A stretch of DNA of 64,000 nucleotides, from assembly GCA_037974965.1 (NCBI GenBank), contig JBBPFI010000003.1:1116001-1180000 (forward strand), in the 5' to 3' direction. Shown here one piece after another: positions 2,966 through 60,845 of this stretch. This DNA comes from Dacryopinax spathularia (taxonomy: Eukaryota > Basidiomycota > Dacrymycetes > Dacrymycetales > Dacrymycetaceae). Numbering within the stretch: the first letter of the stretch is position 1; every line of letters starts with the position of its first letter. The translations under genes and the position numbers were made by a program. The notes beneath the pieces were generated by a model. The model saw nothing but the letters and a program-made list of their open reading frames with translations. It made no database searches and was not told the DNA's origin.

Positions 2966-3040
2966 TGTATCATGGCCCATCGCTCCCATCCAGACTTTCT
3001 CAATACACAACAGACGAACCCATGACGACATACATAAAAG

Positions 3041-3430
3041 TATCAAAACTTGAGGTGTTGGGTTGTGGTGGTGGTTTGTGTTGTGGTTTAGTCGCGTTGT
3101 GGGGGTACCGGTGGTGGTGTGTTTTGGGGTTGTGTTTTGGGTTTTTGGTGGGTTGCTTTTGGGTGTGGCCGCTTCTGCCGCTTGCTTTCCTTTTCAGTTC
3201 GCTACATGGTGTCCGAAGCCAGCTGGTGGGCCCGAAGGCCGACCAGCTCGCTTCGGACTATTTAACTTTTCCCGGAGGTTAGTAAGCATCCACATGTCAT
3301 CTATACTAGGGCGGATCCGGCCGCCTTGCCTTTAATGCGACGGTTCGATACCGACGGGATTCGAACTCGGGGCTGGTCCGCCAAACCCTTTTCACAGGGC
3401 GGCGCGTTAACCAGTTGTACCAGCGAGCCG
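3041..3430 (-). ncRNA. tRNA-like Pol III cassette, element 1 left arm
   Basis: Read on the minus strand it starts GGCTCGCTGG, has an A-box-like TGGTACAACTGG and a B-box-like GTTCGAATCCC about 55 nt later, then the UUCG hairpin (3211-3258), a CA-rich tract and TTTT at 3045-3048. Transcription is inferred from the boxes, not observed. Confidence 0.5.
3211..3258 (-). other. Long hairpin with C(UUCG)G tetraloop
   Basis: Arms of about 16-17 nt with one mismatch (GTCCGAAGC...GCTTCGGAC) enclose GGCC-TTCG-GGCC when read on the minus strand. The same hairpin is kept in all six arms of the family. Confidence 0.75.
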
Positions 3431-4993
3431 AATCCAAAGCGCAGCGCGCAATTAGCCAGTATAGCCTCTCACCACACCTCATCCCCTCGTCCTCAAATAT
3501 TCGCGTCCCCTGTCTGTCCTCCGTCCTCATTACGGCCTCATCACGCACCAACCACCTCATATACTCAATTCATCGTCTACACTTCGTCTATGTCTCGCAT
3601 TCTGATGACGACGCCTGCACGTCTCGGGATGTTCGTAAACTGAGACAGCAGGCTCCCTGGTCGACGAGTACGACGCATAGAGGCGCGCACATCCCTTCAC
3701 CTCTGGCGAATCAGCTTGACCTCTCCTTCTCTACTAGTACCCTGGCTGATGAAAGCGCTCACGTCGTCTATCGCTTACGCTCCACGGTCCACCAAGGCAG
3801 TATGCGCTGACGATAGGAGCTTGCGACCCTCTCTGTGTTTTCTCAGTTGCCCATCGACAAGATCGTAACAGAAACCTGGTCTGACGGTCCATACCGTCCA
3901 TTTACAGGCCAATACAGCAGACAACTATCTCGCAAGCTATCAGAAGACAGAACCCCAACACACCCTGCATGGAAAATAGGCTCCTGACTCGTAAGTAGGC
4001 TCCCGTCTCCCGAACTGAACTACGGCCTACATCTTCACCTGCAAAAGGGAGCACTATCCTGAGAACCCCTGTCAGCTTTTCGTCTTCTTTCCCCGAGCCT
4101 CGGAGTAGCTACTGCCCACTCTCGTTCGTTGCCCATCGAATCTGTCTTCCTTCGCCTGTATTCCCCAACCCCTCCCAGACTGAACTGATCGCACCTCGCC
4201 ACGTCGCGTGCTGGAGTCGGTGCCTGAAGCTGGAGTGTCATCGTTTCAGGAGTATGTTTGGACAGGAGAGGTCTGATGGAGCAAAGGCAACAGGAAGAGG
4301 GGATAGGGCGACGCATGGGGAGGGCTCCCTGATGAGGTGAAGAGGTTCAAGGTGCCGCGATGGGTGGGGTGGGGGGGCTAGTCGCACATACATCGACCAG
4401 CCCCATTACGGAGGATTGCAATGCTATGAACTGTTCTAAAGATTGGACTATGTTGCACAATATGTACGAGGGGAGGTTTGGAAGGGTTTGGGCGCTACAA
4501 GAATACCACTAGCTTCAAGTGGACTTGAGTCGTGGAGGTTCGACGTGCGCACCTGCATCGAACCCGACTACTTTGGAGAACAGCGCTGTCTCTGTCCTCC
4601 TGCTGTCCCTCATTACCGATGCGGCGATGACTACCAAGTCTATACAAGAATCGGATGCGCCGTAGCAAGGCAGCCCTCAGTCATGCCGTCTTTGGAAGAG
4701 TGTGTGCGTCTGAGTGCTAGTACGCGACGAGGCGTGCGCGCATCTATGTGTCGTACTCGTCGACCAGGGAGCCTGCTGTCTCAGTTTACGAACACCCCGA
4801 GACGTGCAGGCGTCGTCATCAGAATGCGAGACATAGACGAAGTGTAGACGATGAATTGAGTATATGAGGTGGTTGGTGCGTGATGAGGCCGTAATGAGGA
4901 CGGAGGACAGACAGGGGACGCGAATATTTGAGGACGAGGGGATGAGGTGTGGTGAGAGGCTATACTGGCTAATTGCGCGCTGCGCTTTGGATT

Positions 4994-5368
4994 CGGCTCG
5001 CTGGTACAACTGGTTAACGCGCCGCCCTGTGAAAAGGGTTTGGCGGACCAGCCCCGAGTTCGAATCCCGTCGGTATCGAACCGTCGCATTAAAGGCAAGG
5101 CGGCCGGATCCGCCCTAGTATAGATGACATGTGGATGCTTACTAACCTCCGGGAAAAGTTAAATAGTCCGAAGCGAGCTGGTCGGCCTTCGGGCCCACCA
5201 GCTGGCTTCGGACACCATGTAGCGAACTGAAAAGGAAAGCAAGCGGCAGAAGCGGCCACACCCAAAAGCAACCCACCAAAAACCCAAAACACAACACCAC
5301 CGGTACCCCCACAACCCGACTAAAACACAACACAAACACCACCACAACCCAACACCTCAAGTTTTGAT
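4994..5368 (+). ncRNA. tRNA-like Pol III cassette, element 1 right arm
   Basis: A-box-like TGGTACAACTGG at 5002 and B-box-like GTTCGAATCCC at 5058. The anticodon-arm region reads CCGCC, then CTGTGAA, an extra 8 nt, then GGCGG, as if a GUG (His-type) loop carried a tiny intron. Downstream are a GGCGG/CCGCC hairpin (near 5098-5115), the UUCG hairpin (5166-5213), a CA-rich tract and TTTT at 5362-5365. The acceptor stem is not preserved, so this is tRNA-derived and not a working tRNA gene. Confidence 0.55.
5166..5213 (+). other. Long hairpin with C(UUCG)G tetraloop
   Basis: Plus-strand copy of the element hairpin: GTCCGAAGC arm, GGCC-TTCG-GGCC apex, GCTTCGGAC arm. It lies about 100 nt downstream of the B box. 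Confidence 0.75.
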
Positions 5369-5461
5369 ACTTTTATGTCGTCATGGATTCGTCTGTTGTG
5401 TATTGAGAAAGTCTGGATGGGAGCGGTGGGACATGATACGGAACCGCGACAACCCAACACC

Positions 5462-17057: not shown

Positions 17058-23115
<6,058 letters not shown>

Positions 23116-45724: not shown

Positions 45725-48025
<2,301 letters not shown>

Positions 48026-48305
48026 TGATCCCGACCGGATATGGAGGCGACGATCTTGAGTCATGTGTACTGTACTTCTCGTAGCAAACGAATACATAGC
48101 GATTGTCACCGAGATCGTGTTCTCCCCCCGAAGGAATCGTCCTGGATGGCAGGGAATCCACGGGGTCAAGGTACGGTCAAAGGCCGAAGGACGTGACCAC
48201 GGGCGACGTGAGATAATGTCGTTGTCAATCGCACGCTCACAGCCCGCAACCTGGACAGTGATCGAGAAAGAAAACGATGGATAAGATCCACTAACAGAAC
48301 GTCGC

Positions 48306-48687
48306 AAAACTTGAGGTGGTGGTGTTGTGTTGTGTTGCGTGGTGTGTGGTGTTGTAGTTGGTTTGTGGGGTGTTGTTTGCGTGGTGGTTTTGTGGGTTGC
48401 TTTTTGGGGTGGCTGCTTGTGCGGCTTGCTTTCCATTTTCGTTTCCATTTCCATTTCGCTACATGCCTTCCGAAGCGAGCTGGTGGGCCCGAAGGCCGAC
48501 CAGCTCCCTTCGGACTGAATCCATTTCTCGTTGGTTAGTAAGCATCCACATGTCATCTATACTAGGGCGGATCCGGCCGCCTTGCCTTGGAAATGCGACG
48601 GTTCGATACCGACGGGATTCGAACTCGGGGCTGGTCCGCCAACCCTTTTCACAGGACAGCGCTTTAACCAGTTGTACCAGCGAGCCG
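48306..48687 (-). ncRNA. tRNA-like Pol III cassette, element 2 left arm
   Basis: Minus-strand GGCTCGCTGGTACAACTGG A-box region, GTTCGAATCCC B box, UUCG hairpin near 48472-48517, CA-rich tract, TTTT at 48306-48309. Confidence 0.5.
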
Positions 48688-49414
48688 AATCCAAAGTGCA
48701 CCGCGCAATTAGCCAAGATAGCCACTCACCGCTCCTTGTCTTGCTTGAACTCCGTTGATCTTCTCGTCCCTCCGTCCGCCCTCCGTCCTCACTACTGCCT
48801 CATCGTGCACCAACCACCTCCTATACCTAATCCATTGTCTACATTTCATCTTGACTTCACGTCCTGTCGACCACGCCTGGACGTCTCGGAATGTTCACAA
48901 ACTGAGACAATCTCCCTCGTCGACGAGTACGGCACACGTATCACATTCCTCGACGTGAATGGCCCGATCGTCTCTTTATTTGGCGGAACACCGGCTCAGG
49001 GCAGAGAAACGATGCCCGAATTTACAGTCTCAAGGCAGTGCACGATCTGTCCCAGATGTCGCCAAATGCAAGAGTGGTCCAAGGAACACAGTCTCTTGCG
49101 TACGAACCCGTCTCCAGAACTGAACTACTACAGCCGACATCGTCACCCACAGCGCCGACCACCGCTACCAAATGGTCTGGATCGGCCCTGAAAGGCGGGG
49201 GACAAGGTCCTTTGATAGTTTGCCTCCTCTGAACTTCTCAACCCAGTATAACTCCCGCACACTCTCGTATAGCTCCCCATGAGAAAACCGGTCTCGTTGG
49301 TTGGCGCTGAGCAACCCCTCGCAAACTGAGCTCATCGCACTTCGGGACGCCCCGTTTTGGAGGTAGGCTGTTAAAGCTTTGGCGTTAACGTTGCTAGAGT
49401 AAGGTGTCGAAGGA

Positions 49415-51720
49415 AGTTTTTGCGACGCTCTTTGAGTGGATCTTTCCCACTCGTTTTCTTTTTCGATAACTGCCCAGGTTGCGGGCTGTGAGCGTGCGAT
49501 GACATTATCTCACGTCGCCCGTGATCACGTCCTTCGGCCTTTGACCGTACCTTGACCCCGTGGATTCCCTGCCATCCAGGACGATTCCTTCGGGGGGAGA
49601 ACACGATCTCGGTGACAATCGCTATGTATTCGTTTGCTACGAGAAGTACAGTACACATGACTCAAGATCGTCGTCTCCATATCCGGTCGGGATCATCAAG
49701 CACTCGCAATCAGGAAGTTGCCGAAATACTCGTCCAATCTGCCCTTCGTCACGTCTTCCAACGAGCACACGAGCGAGACGTAGCCGTCTGGCCTGCAGCA
49801 GACTACAGCGCCGGACGAGCGATCGATACCGTATGTGCTGTACGCTGTTCCGCCCGCTCGCCCGTCGATGGCGATGTCGTCCGTGAATGCTCTAATAGTA
49901 CGATTAGACGCCGAATGCTCATTGCAAAGAGATCTGACGTGCTTTGACCAATGTGTACGCAGCCCTGGGTGGATATCCGTGTAATCCGCATCGTCTTTCG
50001 ACGTGCTCGACACAGTCAGCACCGTGAACACTGCATCTTTCTTCGCGTCCTTCGGCGTGAACCGCTTCAGGAAAGATTTGTCCGACTGCAGATGCTCGCC
50101 AACGCCATTCACGACCGCTCGCTGATGTTCCTCCTTCGGGTTCCCGACGAAGAAGATGACTTTCCATTTTGTGTCGCTGACCAGGAGATCTTGGATCTCG
50201 AATGGTCGGGTATCAGCCACGCGGATGATCACTTGAGGGACGAAGCGTTGGCCGATGACGAGGCCTGGTGCTAGGTCTTGCGAGGATGGGTCGGTGATCA
50301 AGGATGGGGCGTATTGGATGCCGATTCCACTGCATTGCACGCCAATTTGTCCCTCTAAACCCAGATGGTTGGAATGCATACCTGGTGAAACCGCCCATCG
50401 ACTGAAGCAGCCTGAAAATGGAATGTTAGCGTAAAACCTCATAGATATCCAGTTGACCACGAACCCTTGGAATTCCTCATGCGTCACACCCTCCGCATTC
50501 TCCTGAGTAACAGCCTTGCCCGAGAACAAGTCCGCCAGCTTCTTATCAAAGTTGATAAGGTCTCGCGCGTACTTCTGCCGCTCGAACTCGTATGTCTTGA
50601 GGAGTTCGGGTGAGGCCCAGCCGCGCAGGACGTGTGCGAGCTTCCAGGCAAGGTCGTGCGAGTCATTCATGGAGGCGTTCATCCCTTGACCGGCTTTGGG
50701 AGAGTGGGTATGGCCTTTGCAATGTCAGGCATGGCTTTACGAACGAGGCAGTAAGGCAGTCATACATGCGTCACCGGCGATAAATACGCGTTCCTTGACG
50801 GAGAAGTTCTTCGCTACTCGTTGACCGACTATGGACGATGAGAGAATGCCGATAGCCGAGATAGACGTGGCAACTTACTGACGTAGCAGGTCCACCATTC
50901 CGGCTCGTCCGGGAACTCCAGTTTGAACGGCCTCAGCGACCGCTTCGCAATCTGCTCACGGTATCAGACCACTTTTTCGCACCAGTGCAGATGAGGCAAC
51001 GTACCTCCATCACTCGTTCCGGCGTAACCTCACTCCTGTCCTTCCTGCCCTTCTCATCCACCTTCAACCCCTCCGCAATCTGCACATACAGCCTGACCTT
51101 ATCCCCCTCCCGCGGGATAATCATACAGCTCCCGTTATCCGAATGGATCGCACACCGGTTCCTGATGTCCGGAAAATCGGTAACAGGCACGCAGTCGACC
51201 ACGCCCCAAACATGGTCCGTATGCTCGCCTTCGAGCGCTATGCCGAGGGAGTTGCGTACCCAGCTGTGGGCGCCGTCCGAGCCGAGGACGTATTTCGCGT
51301 AGACCGTCTCGGTTGAGCTGCCTGACGCCTGGAGGGAAGGCTCGACGGCGTTCGTGTGTGCTCCGTTGGGTGCGGCGTCCATGGTCGCGTCCGCCAGGTG
51401 TCGTAGTACCACCTGGGTCGTTTGCATCAGCCTCTGTCATCTCGGTCCTCCGCTGACAGCGGATGAACGCACCTTCACAGGGTAGCTGTCTCTGCTCGCA
51501 AGCTCCTTCTCATCCTGCGAGATCGCGAGGCTCTCGGGCACGATTCGAGTCCAGGAAGATAGTTTCGATCTCTCCCTGATGCAGCGTGACCTCAAACCGG
51601 AACCTCGCGCTCGGAGGGCTGCCGTCCGGCACCCTACTCGTCCTCTCTACGCCCTTGCCGTCTTTCCGCGGGATGTAGAATGCCTGCGAGAGGTATCAGC
51701 ATACTCGCCCATCAGACTAG
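49415..51720 (-). pseudogene. Truncated inverted copy of monooxygenase copy 3
   Basis: Closely matches 45990-48305 in reverse, including introns and about 280 bp of 3' flank, so it arose from DNA and not from cDNA. It lacks exon 1 and with it the FAD-binding GAGPAG fold. Relative to copy 3 it also lacks about 34 bp near 51545-51550 (the segment coding MRSHGLEVERP), which shifts the frame. Long stretches stay open: 49696-50682 carries the C-terminal domain and 50933-51427 carries [14 protein letters not shown]. The stop corresponds to 49696-49698. High similarity suggests a recent event. The 3' breakpoint falls at the same GTCGCAAAA point where gene flank meets element at 48305. Confidence 0.85.
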
Positions 51721-52667
51721 TATCCAGAACTGAAAACTGCCTACATCTTGATCACAGAACCATGGCACTCCCACGAGCGACCCTGAGCTGCCCGGAAGAA
51801 GGTCCTCTGACGGCTTGTTCCCTTTGAGCCTCCCAAGCCCAGTATGACCTCCGCCCCCTCTCGTACGTTGCCTATACAAAACCCGCCTCGTTCGTTAGCA
51901 CTAAGCAACGCCTCGCAGAATGAACTCATCGCACTTCATAATGCCGCACGCTGGAGACAGGCTGTCAAAGCTAGGGTGTTGCTGGAGTAGGCGGTCAAAA
52001 CTTGAGCCTTTTCGAGAGAGGGGTACGTTGGCATCCGAGAGGTGGGACATAGGAGAGGCAAGACAAACAGGGGTCGATGCTGGGCACGATGACTGGGAAG
52101 AGAATCGCTGGAGATGCGAGGGGGCAAAGGTGGTTGGTTGTTCGCATAAAGGAGTGCTAGCGACACAGGTTCACCACCCCTGGCATCGCCGAGGTTCCCA
52201 TTGACATGAACTGATTCTGAAATTTGGGCTTTGTCGTGCGGTCTACACTGGAAGACTGTGGGTTACGCGCTACAAATAGACCATTAGCCTAGACTTGAGT
52301 TGTAGAAGTTCGACGTGCGCACCTGGATTGGTCCAACTACTTGGGAGAACCGCATCATCTCTATCCACTGACAGTCCCTCGTCACCCTCGCCTACTAAGA
52401 ATATACCATCCGGGGGCAGGCCCAAACGATGGTGATCCCAGTCATGCCATCCGTTGTTCACTTTCAGCGTCTGAGTGCAAGAACGAGACGAGAGGCAAGA
52501 CAAGTCTCAAGCGGAGGAATGTGCGCATATATCCGTCGTGCTCGTGGATGAGACGGGCTTGTCTCAGTTTGCGAACATTCCGAGACGTGCAGGCGTGGTC
52601 AAGGAGAGACGCAATGTAGACAATGAATTGGGTATATGAGGTGGTTGGTGCGTGATGAGGCAGTAAT

Positions 52668-53005
52668 AGAGAGTTTGAGCGCCGTCCGCAGGAAGCGTTC
52701 GTCCGGACCCTAAGCCGCTCCAATGGCCCTTTTGGTGGGCCTACTTAGTAACTTTACACCCATATTTCTTCATAACCACCTTAATAAACCCTAATTTAAG
52801 GGCACTCTCACTGTCGGGACACTTATAAGACTTATCTGTAAGGGTGACACCCGGTGTGGCTGTCTCGATACAAAGATAAGTTCGAGCGGACGATAGCGTT
52901 TCCCTGCCCTTTCCAGGACACTTCCAGGGGTTTCCACCAATCAGAATGCAGATTTAGGGCTAGGGTCCGGCCGAACGCTTCCCCCGGACGGCGCTCAAAC
53001 TCTCT
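52668..53005. mobile_element. MITE nested in element 2 right arm
   Basis: 338 bp with long terminal inverted repeats of about 45 bp: starts AGAGAGTTTGAGCGCCGTCC, ends with the inverse. AAT flanks both sides (52665-52667, 53006-53008). The equivalent uninterrupted site in element 3 reads GCAGTAGTGAGGACGG, which matches the flanks joined through one AAT. No coding capacity; a 3-bp duplication would suit a PIF/Harbinger-type source. Confidence 0.85.
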
Positions 53006-53107
53006 AATGAAGACGGAGGGCGGAAGAGGGACGCAAATATTGGACGACGATATGGGTGAGGCGCGGTGAGTGGCTATATTGGCTAATTGCGCGGTGCACT
53101 TTGGATT

Positions 53108-53484
53108 CGGCTCGCTGGCACAACTGGTTAACGCGCCGCCCTGTGAAAAGGGTTTGGCGGACCAGCCCCGAGTTCGAATCCCGTCGGTATCGAACCGTCG
53201 CTTTAAAGGCAAGGCGGCCGGATCCGCCCTAGTATAGATGACATGTGGATGCTTACTAACCAAAAACTGGATATAGTCCGAAGGGAGCTGGTCGGCCTTC
53301 GGGCCCACCAGCTCGCTTCGGAAGGCATGTAGCGAAATGGAAATGGAAACGAAAATGGAAAGCAAGCCGCAAAAGCGGCCACACCGAAAAACCAACACCA
53401 AAAAACACCACACAAACCAACCAACAACGACTAACTACACCCGCAAACAACACCACCAAACACCACACCACCACCTCAAGTTTT
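53108..53484 (+). ncRNA. tRNA-like Pol III cassette, element 2 right arm
   Basis: A-box-like TGGCACAACTGG, B-box-like GTTCGAATCCC, UUCG hairpin near 53276-53322, CA-rich tract, TTTT at 53481-53484 with a second longer T run just after. Confidence 0.5.
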
Positions 53485-53699
53485 GATTTTTTTTGGTCGT
53501 GTGGTAGTTGTAATCATTTGCCTGGAATCCATTCCAAAAGCACGTGGATTCCAGCGATGGGACTCGGTACAGAGTCATTCCATTTTCATCACAGCGCTGC
53601 TATGACAAGCGACTGTTAACTTGTTGGAAGCGATCATCCTCCCACTACACCACCTAAAACCATACGCCCGGATCCCTCTACACAAACTTCCCCTTCGAC

Positions 53700-58480: not shown

Positions 58481-58593
58481 TGTTAAACTAGCGTTGTAAT
58501 GAAAATCGGAATGATAGTGTATTGCGTCTTATCGTTATCTGCGTGCTTCCTCAGAAGACTCGATGGACTCATCCTATCACGACATAAAATATC

Positions 58594-58969
58594 AAAACTT
58601 GAGGTGGTGGTGTGTTGTTGTGTTGTGTTGCTTTTGCTTGCTGTGTGGTGTGGTGTGTTTGTAGTTGTTTTGTGTGGGTGTTTTTTGGGGTGCCTTTTGG
58701 GTGTGGCCGCTTTTGCGGCTTGCTTTCCTTTTCCAGTTCGCTACATGCCTTCCGAAGCGAGCTGGTGGGCCCGAAGGCCGACCAGCTCCCTTCGGACTGT
58801 ATCCATTACCCGTTGGTTAGTAAGCATCCACGCGTCATCTATACTAGGGCGGATCCGGCCGCCTTGCCTTGGAAATGCGACGGTTCGATACCGCGGGATT
58901 CGAACTCGGGGCTGGTCCGCCAAACCCTTTTCACAGGGCAGCGTTTTAACCAGTTGTACCAGCGAGCCG
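58594..58969 (-). ncRNA. tRNA-like Pol III cassette, element 3 left arm
   Basis: Minus strand: A-box-like TGGTACAACTGG, B-box-like GTTCGAATCCC, UUCG hairpin near 58752-58797, CA-rich tract, TTTT at 58594-58597. Confidence 0.5.
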
Positions 58970-60472
58970 AATCCAAAGTGCACCGCGCAATTAGCCAATA
59001 TACCCTCTCACCGCGCCTCATCCAAATCGTCGTCCAATATTTGCGTCCCTCATCCGCCCTCCGTCCTCACTACTGCCTCATCATGTACCATCCGCCTCAT
59101 ATATCCAACTCGTTGTCTACAGTCCATCTCTACCTCACGTTCTGACGACCACGCCTGCACGTCTCGGAATGTTCGCAAACTGAGACAAGCCCGTCTCATC
59201 CACGAGCACGACGGCTATATGCGCATATTCCTCCGCTCTGGCGACGTGTCTTACCCCCCGTCTCGTTCTAGCACTTAGACGCCGACCCGTAACAGCGGAT
59301 GGCATGACTGGGATCACCATCGTTTCGACCTGTTCGAGGATTGTATATTCTTAGTAGGCGAGGGTGACGGGGGACTGTCAGTGGATAGAGATGACGTGGT
59401 TCTCCGAAGTAGTTGAGTCAATCCAGGTGCGCACGTCGAGCTTCTGCAACTCAAGTCTAGGCTAATGGTATATTTGTAGCGCGTAACCCACATTCTTTCA
59501 GTGTAGATACTGCACAACAAAGCCCAAATTTCAGAATCGGTTCATGTCAATGGGAGCCTCTGCGAAACCAGGGCAGGTCGACGCAACGTGTGTCCCTAGC
59601 AGGCCTTCATGCGGACAGCCAAGCTTCCCCCTCTCGCAGCTCCAACAATTCTCTTCCCATGCCTCTTACCCAGCGCCAGCCCCTCTGCCTCTTGTCTCTC
59701 CTGTGTACCACCTCTCGGATGCCCAAGTACTCCTCTCACGAAAAGGCTCAGCCTTCGACACCTTACTCTAGCAACGTTAACGCCGAAGCTTTAACAGCCC
59801 ACCTCCAAAAGGGGCATCCCGAAGTGCGATGAGCTCAGTTTGCGAGGGGTTGCTTAGCGCCAACGACCGAGACCGGTTTTCTCATGGGGAGCTATACGAG
59901 AGCGTGCGGGAGTTATACTGGGCTTGAGAAGTTCAGAGGAGGCAAACTATCAAAGGACCTTGTCCGCCGCCTTTCAGGGCAGATCCAGACCGTTTGGTAG
60001 CGGTGGTCGGCGCTGTGGGTGAAGATGTCGGCTGTAGTAGTTCAGTTCTGGAGACGGGTTCGTACGCAAGAGACTGTGTTCCTTGGACCACAGTTGCATT
60101 TGGCGACATCTGGGACAGAGCGTGCACTACCTTGAGACTGTAAATTCGGGCATCGTTTCTCTGCCCTGAGCCGGTTGTCCGCCAAATAAAGAGACGATAG
60201 GGCCATTCACGTTGAGGAATGTGATACGTGTGCCGTACTCGTCGACGAGGGAGATTGTCTCAGTTTGCGAACATTCCGAGACTGCAGGCGTTGTCATCAG
60301 AACGTGAAATAGAGATGGTCTGTAGGCGACGAGTTGACTATATGAGGCGGATGGTACATGATGAGGCAGTAGTGAGGACGGAGGGCGGATGAGGGACGCA
60401 AATATTGGACGACGATTTGGATGAGGCGCGGTGAGAGGGTATATTGGCTAATTGCGCGGTGCACTTTGGATT

Positions 60473-60841
60473 CGGCTCGCTGGTACAACTGGTTAAAACG
60501 CTGCCCTGTGAAAAGGGTTTGGCGGACCAGCCCCGAGTTCGAATCCCGCGGTATCGAACCGTCGCATTTCCAAGGCAAGGCGGCCGGATCCGCCCTAGTA
60601 TAGATGACGCGTGGATGCTTACTAACCAACGGGTAATGGATACAGTCCGAAGGGAGCTGGTCGGCCTTCGGGCCCACCAGCTCGCTTCGGAAGGCATGTA
60701 GCGAAATGGAAATCCAGCCGCAAAAGCGGCACCCCAAAAAAGCAACACCAAAAACAACAAAACAAACAACACCCTCACAAACCAACTACGAAAACACAAC
60801 ACAACACAACACAACACAACAACCCCACCACCTCAAGTTTT
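60473..60841 (+). ncRNA. tRNA-like Pol III cassette, element 3 right arm
   Basis: A-box-like TGGTACAACTGG, B-box-like GTTCGAATCCC, UUCG hairpin near 60643-60690, a tract of repeated ACAAC units, TTTT at 60838-60841. Confidence 0.5.
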
Positions 60842-60845
60842 GCAA

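Follow-up and report, generated by a model that had tools for sequence, protein, structure and literature searches.

A family of 13 genes for a noncoding RNA, predicted from its sequence to be transcribed by RNA polymerase III (Pol III), is probably what underlies a set of inverted repeats in the fungus Dacryopinax spathularia: the genes lie in divergent pairs, seem to have been duplicated locally, and some of the paired arms appear to have been homogenised by gene conversion. The window analysed here, a stretch of 64,000 nucleotides (contig C3, positions 1116001-1180000; genome of 29.2 Mb in 24 contigs), contains three of the repeat units. If transcribed, the product would be a previously undescribed multi-copy Pol III RNA of a fungal class, strongly constrained and matching no family of the RNA library used, and the inverted pairs would provide a natural system in which gene conversion among Pol III genes of a fungus could be studied. 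No description of this paired RNA gene family was found in the open-access literature searched.

Arrangement of the putative paired genes

Each of the three units in the window has inverted arms, and every arm carries a module that reads outward (Table 1). The order of elements is the same in all six arms: A box, B box, a 46-nt hairpin capped by UUCG, an A/C-rich tract and TTTTG, with the A and B boxes 55-56 nt apart from start to start. The first-pass annotation had reported both the three copies and their common outward module; both are confirmed, with ends that are now defined family-wide. Its ends for U1, 2966 and 5443, reflect the fact that the arm-to-arm match of this unit continues outward to 2967 and 5439. 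The centre, which it had taken to be unique to each copy, is in fact related between units: in the five units compared, the centres are weakly alike, with about 66-77% identity in matching stretches of more than 100 bases. A coding centre was considered and rejected, as no long frame common to the centres was seen by eye; the centre of U1 contains no frame of 200 aa or longer. In the right arm of U2, the inner part is interrupted at about 52665-53005.

Table 1. Positions of the repeat units and their predicted RNA genes in the window
Feature	Position	Strand	Remarks
Unit U1, two putative RNA genes of Pol III type, divergent and sharing a centre	3044-5366		family-wide ends
U1 left arm, predicted RNA gene	3044-3435	-	module 3435-3212; A box 3422-3411; B box 3366-3357
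U1 left arm, 3' parts	3257-3044	-	UUCG hairpin 3257-3212; A/C tract 3211-3058; terminal 14 nt 3057-3044
U1 right arm, predicted RNA gene	4989-5366	+	module 4989-5212; A box 5002-5013; B box 5058-5067
U1 right arm, 3' parts	5167-5366	+	UUCG hairpin 5167-5212; A/C tract 5213-5352; terminal 14 nt 5353-5366
U1 right arm, upstream element with TATA-like sequence	4951-4988	+	-38 to -19: 13/20 columns invariant over 13 arms
U1 centre	3700-4730		66-75% like the centres of other units in matching stretches >100 bases
Unit U2	48305-53485		interior enlarged by inverted copy (49418-51713) of monooxygenase gene piece 45982-48309
U2 left arm, predicted RNA gene	48305-48692	-	A box 48679-48668; B box 48624-48615; hairpin 48514-48469
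U2 right arm, predicted RNA gene	53103-53485	+	A box 53116-53127; B box 53172-53181; hairpin 53277-53322
Unit U3	58593-60842		family-wide ends
U3 left arm, predicted RNA gene	58593-58974	-	A box 58961-58950; B box 58905-58896; hairpin 58796-58751
U3 right arm, predicted RNA gene	60468-60842	+	A box 60481-60492; B box 60537-60546; hairpin 60646-60691

Copy number and distribution in the genome

DNA searches of the whole genome with a 535-base arm and a 255-base core revealed 13 arms, all on C3 between positions 1119044 and 1288602, and otherwise only short matches inside those same arms; repeat counts from such searches are lower bounds, all 13 first-look candidates having been scored in both. 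The arms form six two-armed units (U1-U5 and U7) and one single arm (U6), which lies inside the cluster; four units, U6 among them, are situated beyond the window. A 35-nt core pattern, searched over the 29.2 Mb with up to three mismatches, gave 13 matches, all of them exact and all in arms, and the reversed pattern, used as a control, gave none. Neither the DNA searches nor this pattern detected dispersed single copies outside the 170-kb cluster. A covariance model built from the 13 arms returned the same 13 and one weak match (E 2) in the 200 kb around the window. An exact 30-nt pattern was absent from viral contigs and prokaryote genomes, as expected for a fungal sequence, and a protein-database search with one frame overlying an arm yielded no match at E<=1.

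The arms are thus not mostly single and scattered with unlinked centres: 12 of the 13 are paired, and the centres of the five compared units are related. The earlier suggestion of a divergent Pol III-type pair that duplicates as a unit stands, but a dispersed mobile family is not borne out, all copies found being confined to 170 kb.

Predicted promoter elements and terminators

A strict scan for an A box and a B box in the 200 kb around the window identified 13 sites, each of which is an arm, and all 13 arms match the strict consensus; ten Markov-1 controls gave 0 or 1 site each. A looser scan is unspecific, with 29 sites versus 0-7 in the controls, many of the sites being second registers in the same arms. 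Upstream of the module, conservation peaks at -38 to -19, a stretch with 13 invariant columns that includes a TATA-like sequence.

In ARAGORN and Rfam searches, no tRNA was called in the window, and a tRNA gene was rejected on these grounds and because no likeness above shuffles was seen beyond the boxes. Among 20 tRNA genes of this genome, the best match to an arm is tRNA-Asn, with an unmasked score that none of 500 shuffles reached; when the A and B boxes are masked, the similarity score over the 20 genes is reached by 285 of 500 shuffles. By this test, the predicted promoter is tRNA-like, and the resemblance to tRNA exceeds that of shuffles when the two boxes are included.

The first run of four T residues (T4) is the terminal one in all 13 predicted transcripts; about 10 T4 runs would be expected in these transcripts, an expectation that overstates the significance because the A/C tract is poor in T and the cores are near-identical. 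The antisense strand contains 4-8 T4 runs per arm. The tRNA sample comprises 20 genes read among 54 matches listed (63 of 551 candidates scored), the matches left out being 27 on C19 and C23, contigs of a different-looking kind, and seven others. The first run of at least four T lies no more than 14 nt away in 18 of these 20 genes; it is exactly T4 in 14 of the 18 and is followed by G in 11. T4(G) is therefore an ordinary terminator in this genome. As to the two contigs set aside, six tRNA matches occur on both C19 and C23 with equal scores and in reverse order, which suggests that part of C19, perhaps organelle DNA, is present a second time as C23.

Sequence conservation and predicted fold

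Mean pairwise identity between units reaches 95% in the tRNA-like part (95 nt), 88% in the 79-88 nt that follow and 97% in the hairpin; it amounts to 60% in the A/C tract and to 99% in the last 14 nt, where 13 of 14 columns are invariant. Upstream of the modules, the nearest 60 nt are 74% identical and the sequence farther out 58%, a figure that is lowered because the right arm of U2 contributes only 50 nt there; without this arm, the mean over 250 bp upstream is 69%. Outside the unit ends, identity is 27-34%. Counted in steps of 20 nt along the right arm of U1, 15-19 columns are invariant in most of the core and 7 in one linker; across the A/C tract the count is 11-12 at the start, then 6, then 0-2, followed by 13 at the 3' end and 0 outside. 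Apart from its first 30 nt, the A/C tract consists of 87-95% A+C in all 13 arms, as compared with 38-46% in the 250 nt upstream of the modules, while its sequence and length diverge; its composition thus seems to be constrained or renewed by slippage. Recent copying alone would hardly yield this conserved-variable-conserved pattern within one predicted transcript, a pattern that an RNA gene with a free linker would give. The constraint falls on the part predicted to be transcribed; a foldback element or a SINE dimer would not by its nature account for this.

Compared with dinucleotide shuffles, the predicted folds (four folds from three arms in all) are more stable, with z scores of -3.2 for the right arm of U1 over 4989-5359, the near-full transcript, -4.1 for the same arm over 4989-5212, -4.3 for the right arm of U2 and -3.9 for the core of a third arm. 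A UUCG-capped hairpin is present in all four of these single-strand folds and in the RNAalifold consensus of a 230-column alignment. For the 5' part, two alignments lead to two different folds: with 230 columns, RNAalifold prefers a long closing helix (1-17/109-125), and with 105 columns a hairpin of 79 nt, closed by pairing of the B box strand with the 5' end. In the 105-column fold, 100% of the cells are paired and helix 1 shows one compensatory change, from A-U to G-C in U7; this is one compensatory pair among 10 distinct, highly similar sequences, and it was reached by 51 of 500 shuffles. From these predictions we infer that the RNA would be folded in the cell.

At gathering score, the window has no Rfam match, and U1 has none at E<=5; at E<=10, two arms gave only matches far below the gathering scores. 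A known Rfam family was rejected accordingly, and no function is named by a relative, the matches being absent or far below gathering scores.

Unit ends and multiplication of the units

All 13 arms end at the same base. For arms with unrelated flanks (66 pairs), identity is 98.7% over the last 14 nt and 28% over the next 30 nt. Target duplications, for which the first-pass annotation had proposed to look, are absent: abutting direct repeats measure 2 bp in U1 and 0 bp in each of the other five two-armed units. The 13 outer flanks were sorted into seven classes by eye and with BLAST matches (L and R denoting the left and right arm): U1L, U1R, U2R, U3L and U4L form one class, U2L and U3R a second, and U5L and U6R a third, and the flanks of U4R, U5R, U7L and U7R each differ. 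Neither flank of U7 resembles that of another unit for more than a few bases in the 200 kb compared. Three blocks between U2 and U3 (C3:1169012-1171353, 1171351-1171980 and 1171997-1174373) recur at both sides of U4, inverted and permuted, with 81%, 90% and 79% identity; around U2-U4, this fits a segment holding a unit that was duplicated and then inverted.

Within units, the arms are 98.8% (U1), 90.7% (U7), 88.5% (U3), 79.3% (U4) and 55.8% (U5) identical over 250 bp upstream, U2 with its interrupted right arm being left out of this comparison. Among 20,000 random pairings, 23 reached the observed within-unit mean. Over these 250 bp, 6 of 10 arms are most similar to their unit partner; judged by the A/C tract together with 98 bp of upstream sequence, 4 of 12 are. 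The abrupt unit ends exceed what plain segmental duplication would predict, and two accounts remain for them: either a DNA element is bounded by these ends, or the loci are old and gene conversion has renewed their arms. The former is weakened by the missing target duplications, and the latter gains from the likeness of arms within units over 250 bp upstream, uneven though it is.

Gene neighbourhood

The genes among or near the units include those for Sec6, a P-type ATPase, a CDP-alcohol phosphatidyltransferase, a GID9-like protein, an AreA-like factor and a UAA transporter. The window encodes a CTLH-domain protein (GID9/FYV10-like) that shares 89% identity, over 79% of its length, with a protein of Calocera cornea; its identity to a Dacryopinax protein is 81%. 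Related pieces of a phenol-hydroxylase/FAD-type monooxygenase gene occupy 17075-18844, 21423-22365, 45982-48309 and 49418-51713, with 70-89% DNA identity; the piece inside U2 repeats the neighbouring one in inverted orientation, and the block so copied stops at the outer end of U2. A weak match to Q_salvage (queuosine salvage) adjoins U4 at C3:1190838-1191407; a link to queuosine salvage was dropped, as the whole-genome search lists this family only on C4. A mating-type locus was rejected as well, since matches to STE3 were located on C9 and those to Homeobox_KN on C2 and C12. Two STE3-like receptor genes are found about 10 kb apart at C9:379541-391317, one of them with in-frame stops in a six-frame translation, which may be introns. 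Outside the units, C3 also carries an inverted repeat pair of 185 bp with 99.5% identity (1198666-1198850 and 1215476-1215292).

Proposed model

The 13 genes could function in the following manner: As a local cluster of six divergent pairs and one single gene, each would be transcribed outward by Pol III from an internal A box/B box promoter, assisted by the TATA-like upstream element, and transcription would stop at T4G. The predicted RNA, measured from module start to unit end, would be 351-411 nt long and consist of a stable 5' domain, a linker, the UUCG-capped hairpin, the variable A/C-rich tract and a nearly fixed 3' end (CACCUCAAGUUUU). Purifying selection would hold the structured core and the 3' end, which most likely bind proteins or partner RNAs, and the A/C tract, free to vary in sequence and length, may serve as a flexible or protein-binding linker. 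This layout suggests that the RNA is part of an RNA-protein particle or a regulatory RNA. The pairs would have multiplied at least partly through local segmental duplication and rearrangement, and some inverted arms would swap sequence by gene conversion.

Alternative explanations

The units might be chromatin boundary elements: TFIIIC bound to the paired B boxes could organise or insulate this gene-bearing region, with transcripts as by-products. B boxes in inverted repeats, like centromeric tDNAs, are types of barrier described for fission yeast (PMC2040200), and the proposal by analogy is quite improbable here. A boundary would need the boxes, yet the hairpin and the last 14 nt are conserved equally well, which points to an RNA product, and the ordinary genes among or near the units (Sec6, P-type ATPase, GID9-like) leave no obvious silent domain. 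That the arms are strongly diverged copies of an essential Pol III RNA already known, with signal recognition particle (SRP) RNA as the foremost candidate, is very unlikely. Models RF01502 and RF00017 found no SRP RNA in the genome (26 of 268 and 26 of 957 candidates scored, the control of one search matching nowhere), and basidiomycete SRP RNA is described as non-canonical and as liable to be missed where models do not cover the lineage (PMC4605306). UGUGA, invariant in the arms and located in a loop of the 105-column structure, fits the UGUNR motif given for fungal SRP RNA in the same source; by our own estimate, UGUNR is expected more than once by chance at such length. The loop of the most stable hairpin, UUCG, has G at the fourth place, as opposed to the A described at the fourth loop position of helix 8 (PMC4605306), and no SRP model is among the matches up to E 10 in two arms. 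RNase P RNA is located elsewhere, on C10.

The first-pass annotation had offered a foldback element or a dimer of SINEs as the origin of the units; dispersal and target duplications, the signs of such mobility, are absent, and the sharp ends leave room for a DNA-element origin. Two copies of a tRNA-derived SINE, joined head to head and now duplicated together, would have the A and B boxes, the length and the oligo-T end seen here. Such a dimer was nevertheless rejected for lack of target duplications and of dispersed copies in the whole-genome searches, and we regard it as extremely improbable: the upstream arm and the centre belong to the unit, and an RNA copy would not carry them; with the boxes masked, moreover, the tRNA similarity is within that of shuffles, though no shuffle reaches it unmasked. 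A DNA element of the foldback type, bounded by terminal inverted repeats (CAAAACTTGAGGTG), carrying a pair of Pol III genes whose terminators are its ends and hopping or being copied locally through an unknown enzyme, is possible but unlikely. It would account for terminal inverted repeats at fixed ends, for the common end base of all 13 arms amid unrelated flanks, for the flanks peculiar to U7 and for the number of flank classes, seven being more than the two expected from a single ancestral locus. Against it stand the near absence of abutting repeats, the confinement of the copies to 170 kb of 29.2 Mb, and the lack of transposase or reverse transcriptase domains in a Pfam scan of 29 distinct ORFs among 109 listed (>=190 aa); the preferential conservation of an internal RNA would also be unexpected for a non-autonomous element, and gene conversion up to the last homologous base could sharpen the ends as well. 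In a fusion of the RNA-gene and DNA-element ideas, which we hold to be unlikely, the arms would encode a new class of Pol III RNA with genes found almost exclusively in palindromic divergent pairs. Their terminators would double as the outer limits of a DNA unit that is copied locally; RNA gene and mobile or conversion-driven unit would have become one, and the RNA may aid in its copying or keeping. The locally duplicated family of predicted Pol III RNA genes is the reading preferred here.

Comparison with known systems

Foldback and other DNA elements with terminal inverted repeats have long inverted arms, fixed ends and a variable centre. The units described here are alike in all three respects; they differ by having neither target duplications nor dispersal and by enclosing a conserved predicted RNA gene. 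The fission-yeast barriers of the inverted-repeat/B-box and tDNA types, as described in PMC2040200, likewise place B boxes within inverted repeats; in the present units, conservation includes the hairpin and the terminal sequence in addition to the boxes. Fungal tRNA-related SINEs of the AfuSINE2 type, according to PMC5063351, share the internal A and B boxes, a size of 140-493 bp, low copy number and an oligo-T tract, but have target duplications of 4-14 bp, which are lacking in the present units, themselves paired and restricted to one cluster.

The nearest analogue in kind, by comparison of general features, is the dictyostelid Class I RNA family. These RNAs are about 60 nt long and have the upstream promoter element DUSE, in contrast to the 351-411 nt, the internal A and B boxes, the inverted pairs and the A/C tract of the units in the fungus (PMC7919456). 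Transcription of Class I RNAs by Pol III is thought possible by the authors of that study, and the family, not found in outgroup genomes, is presented there as lineage-specific, multi-gene and often clustered, with conserved ends and a variable remainder (PMC7919456). Several clustered genes with conserved ends around variable sequence are features that the two families have in common.
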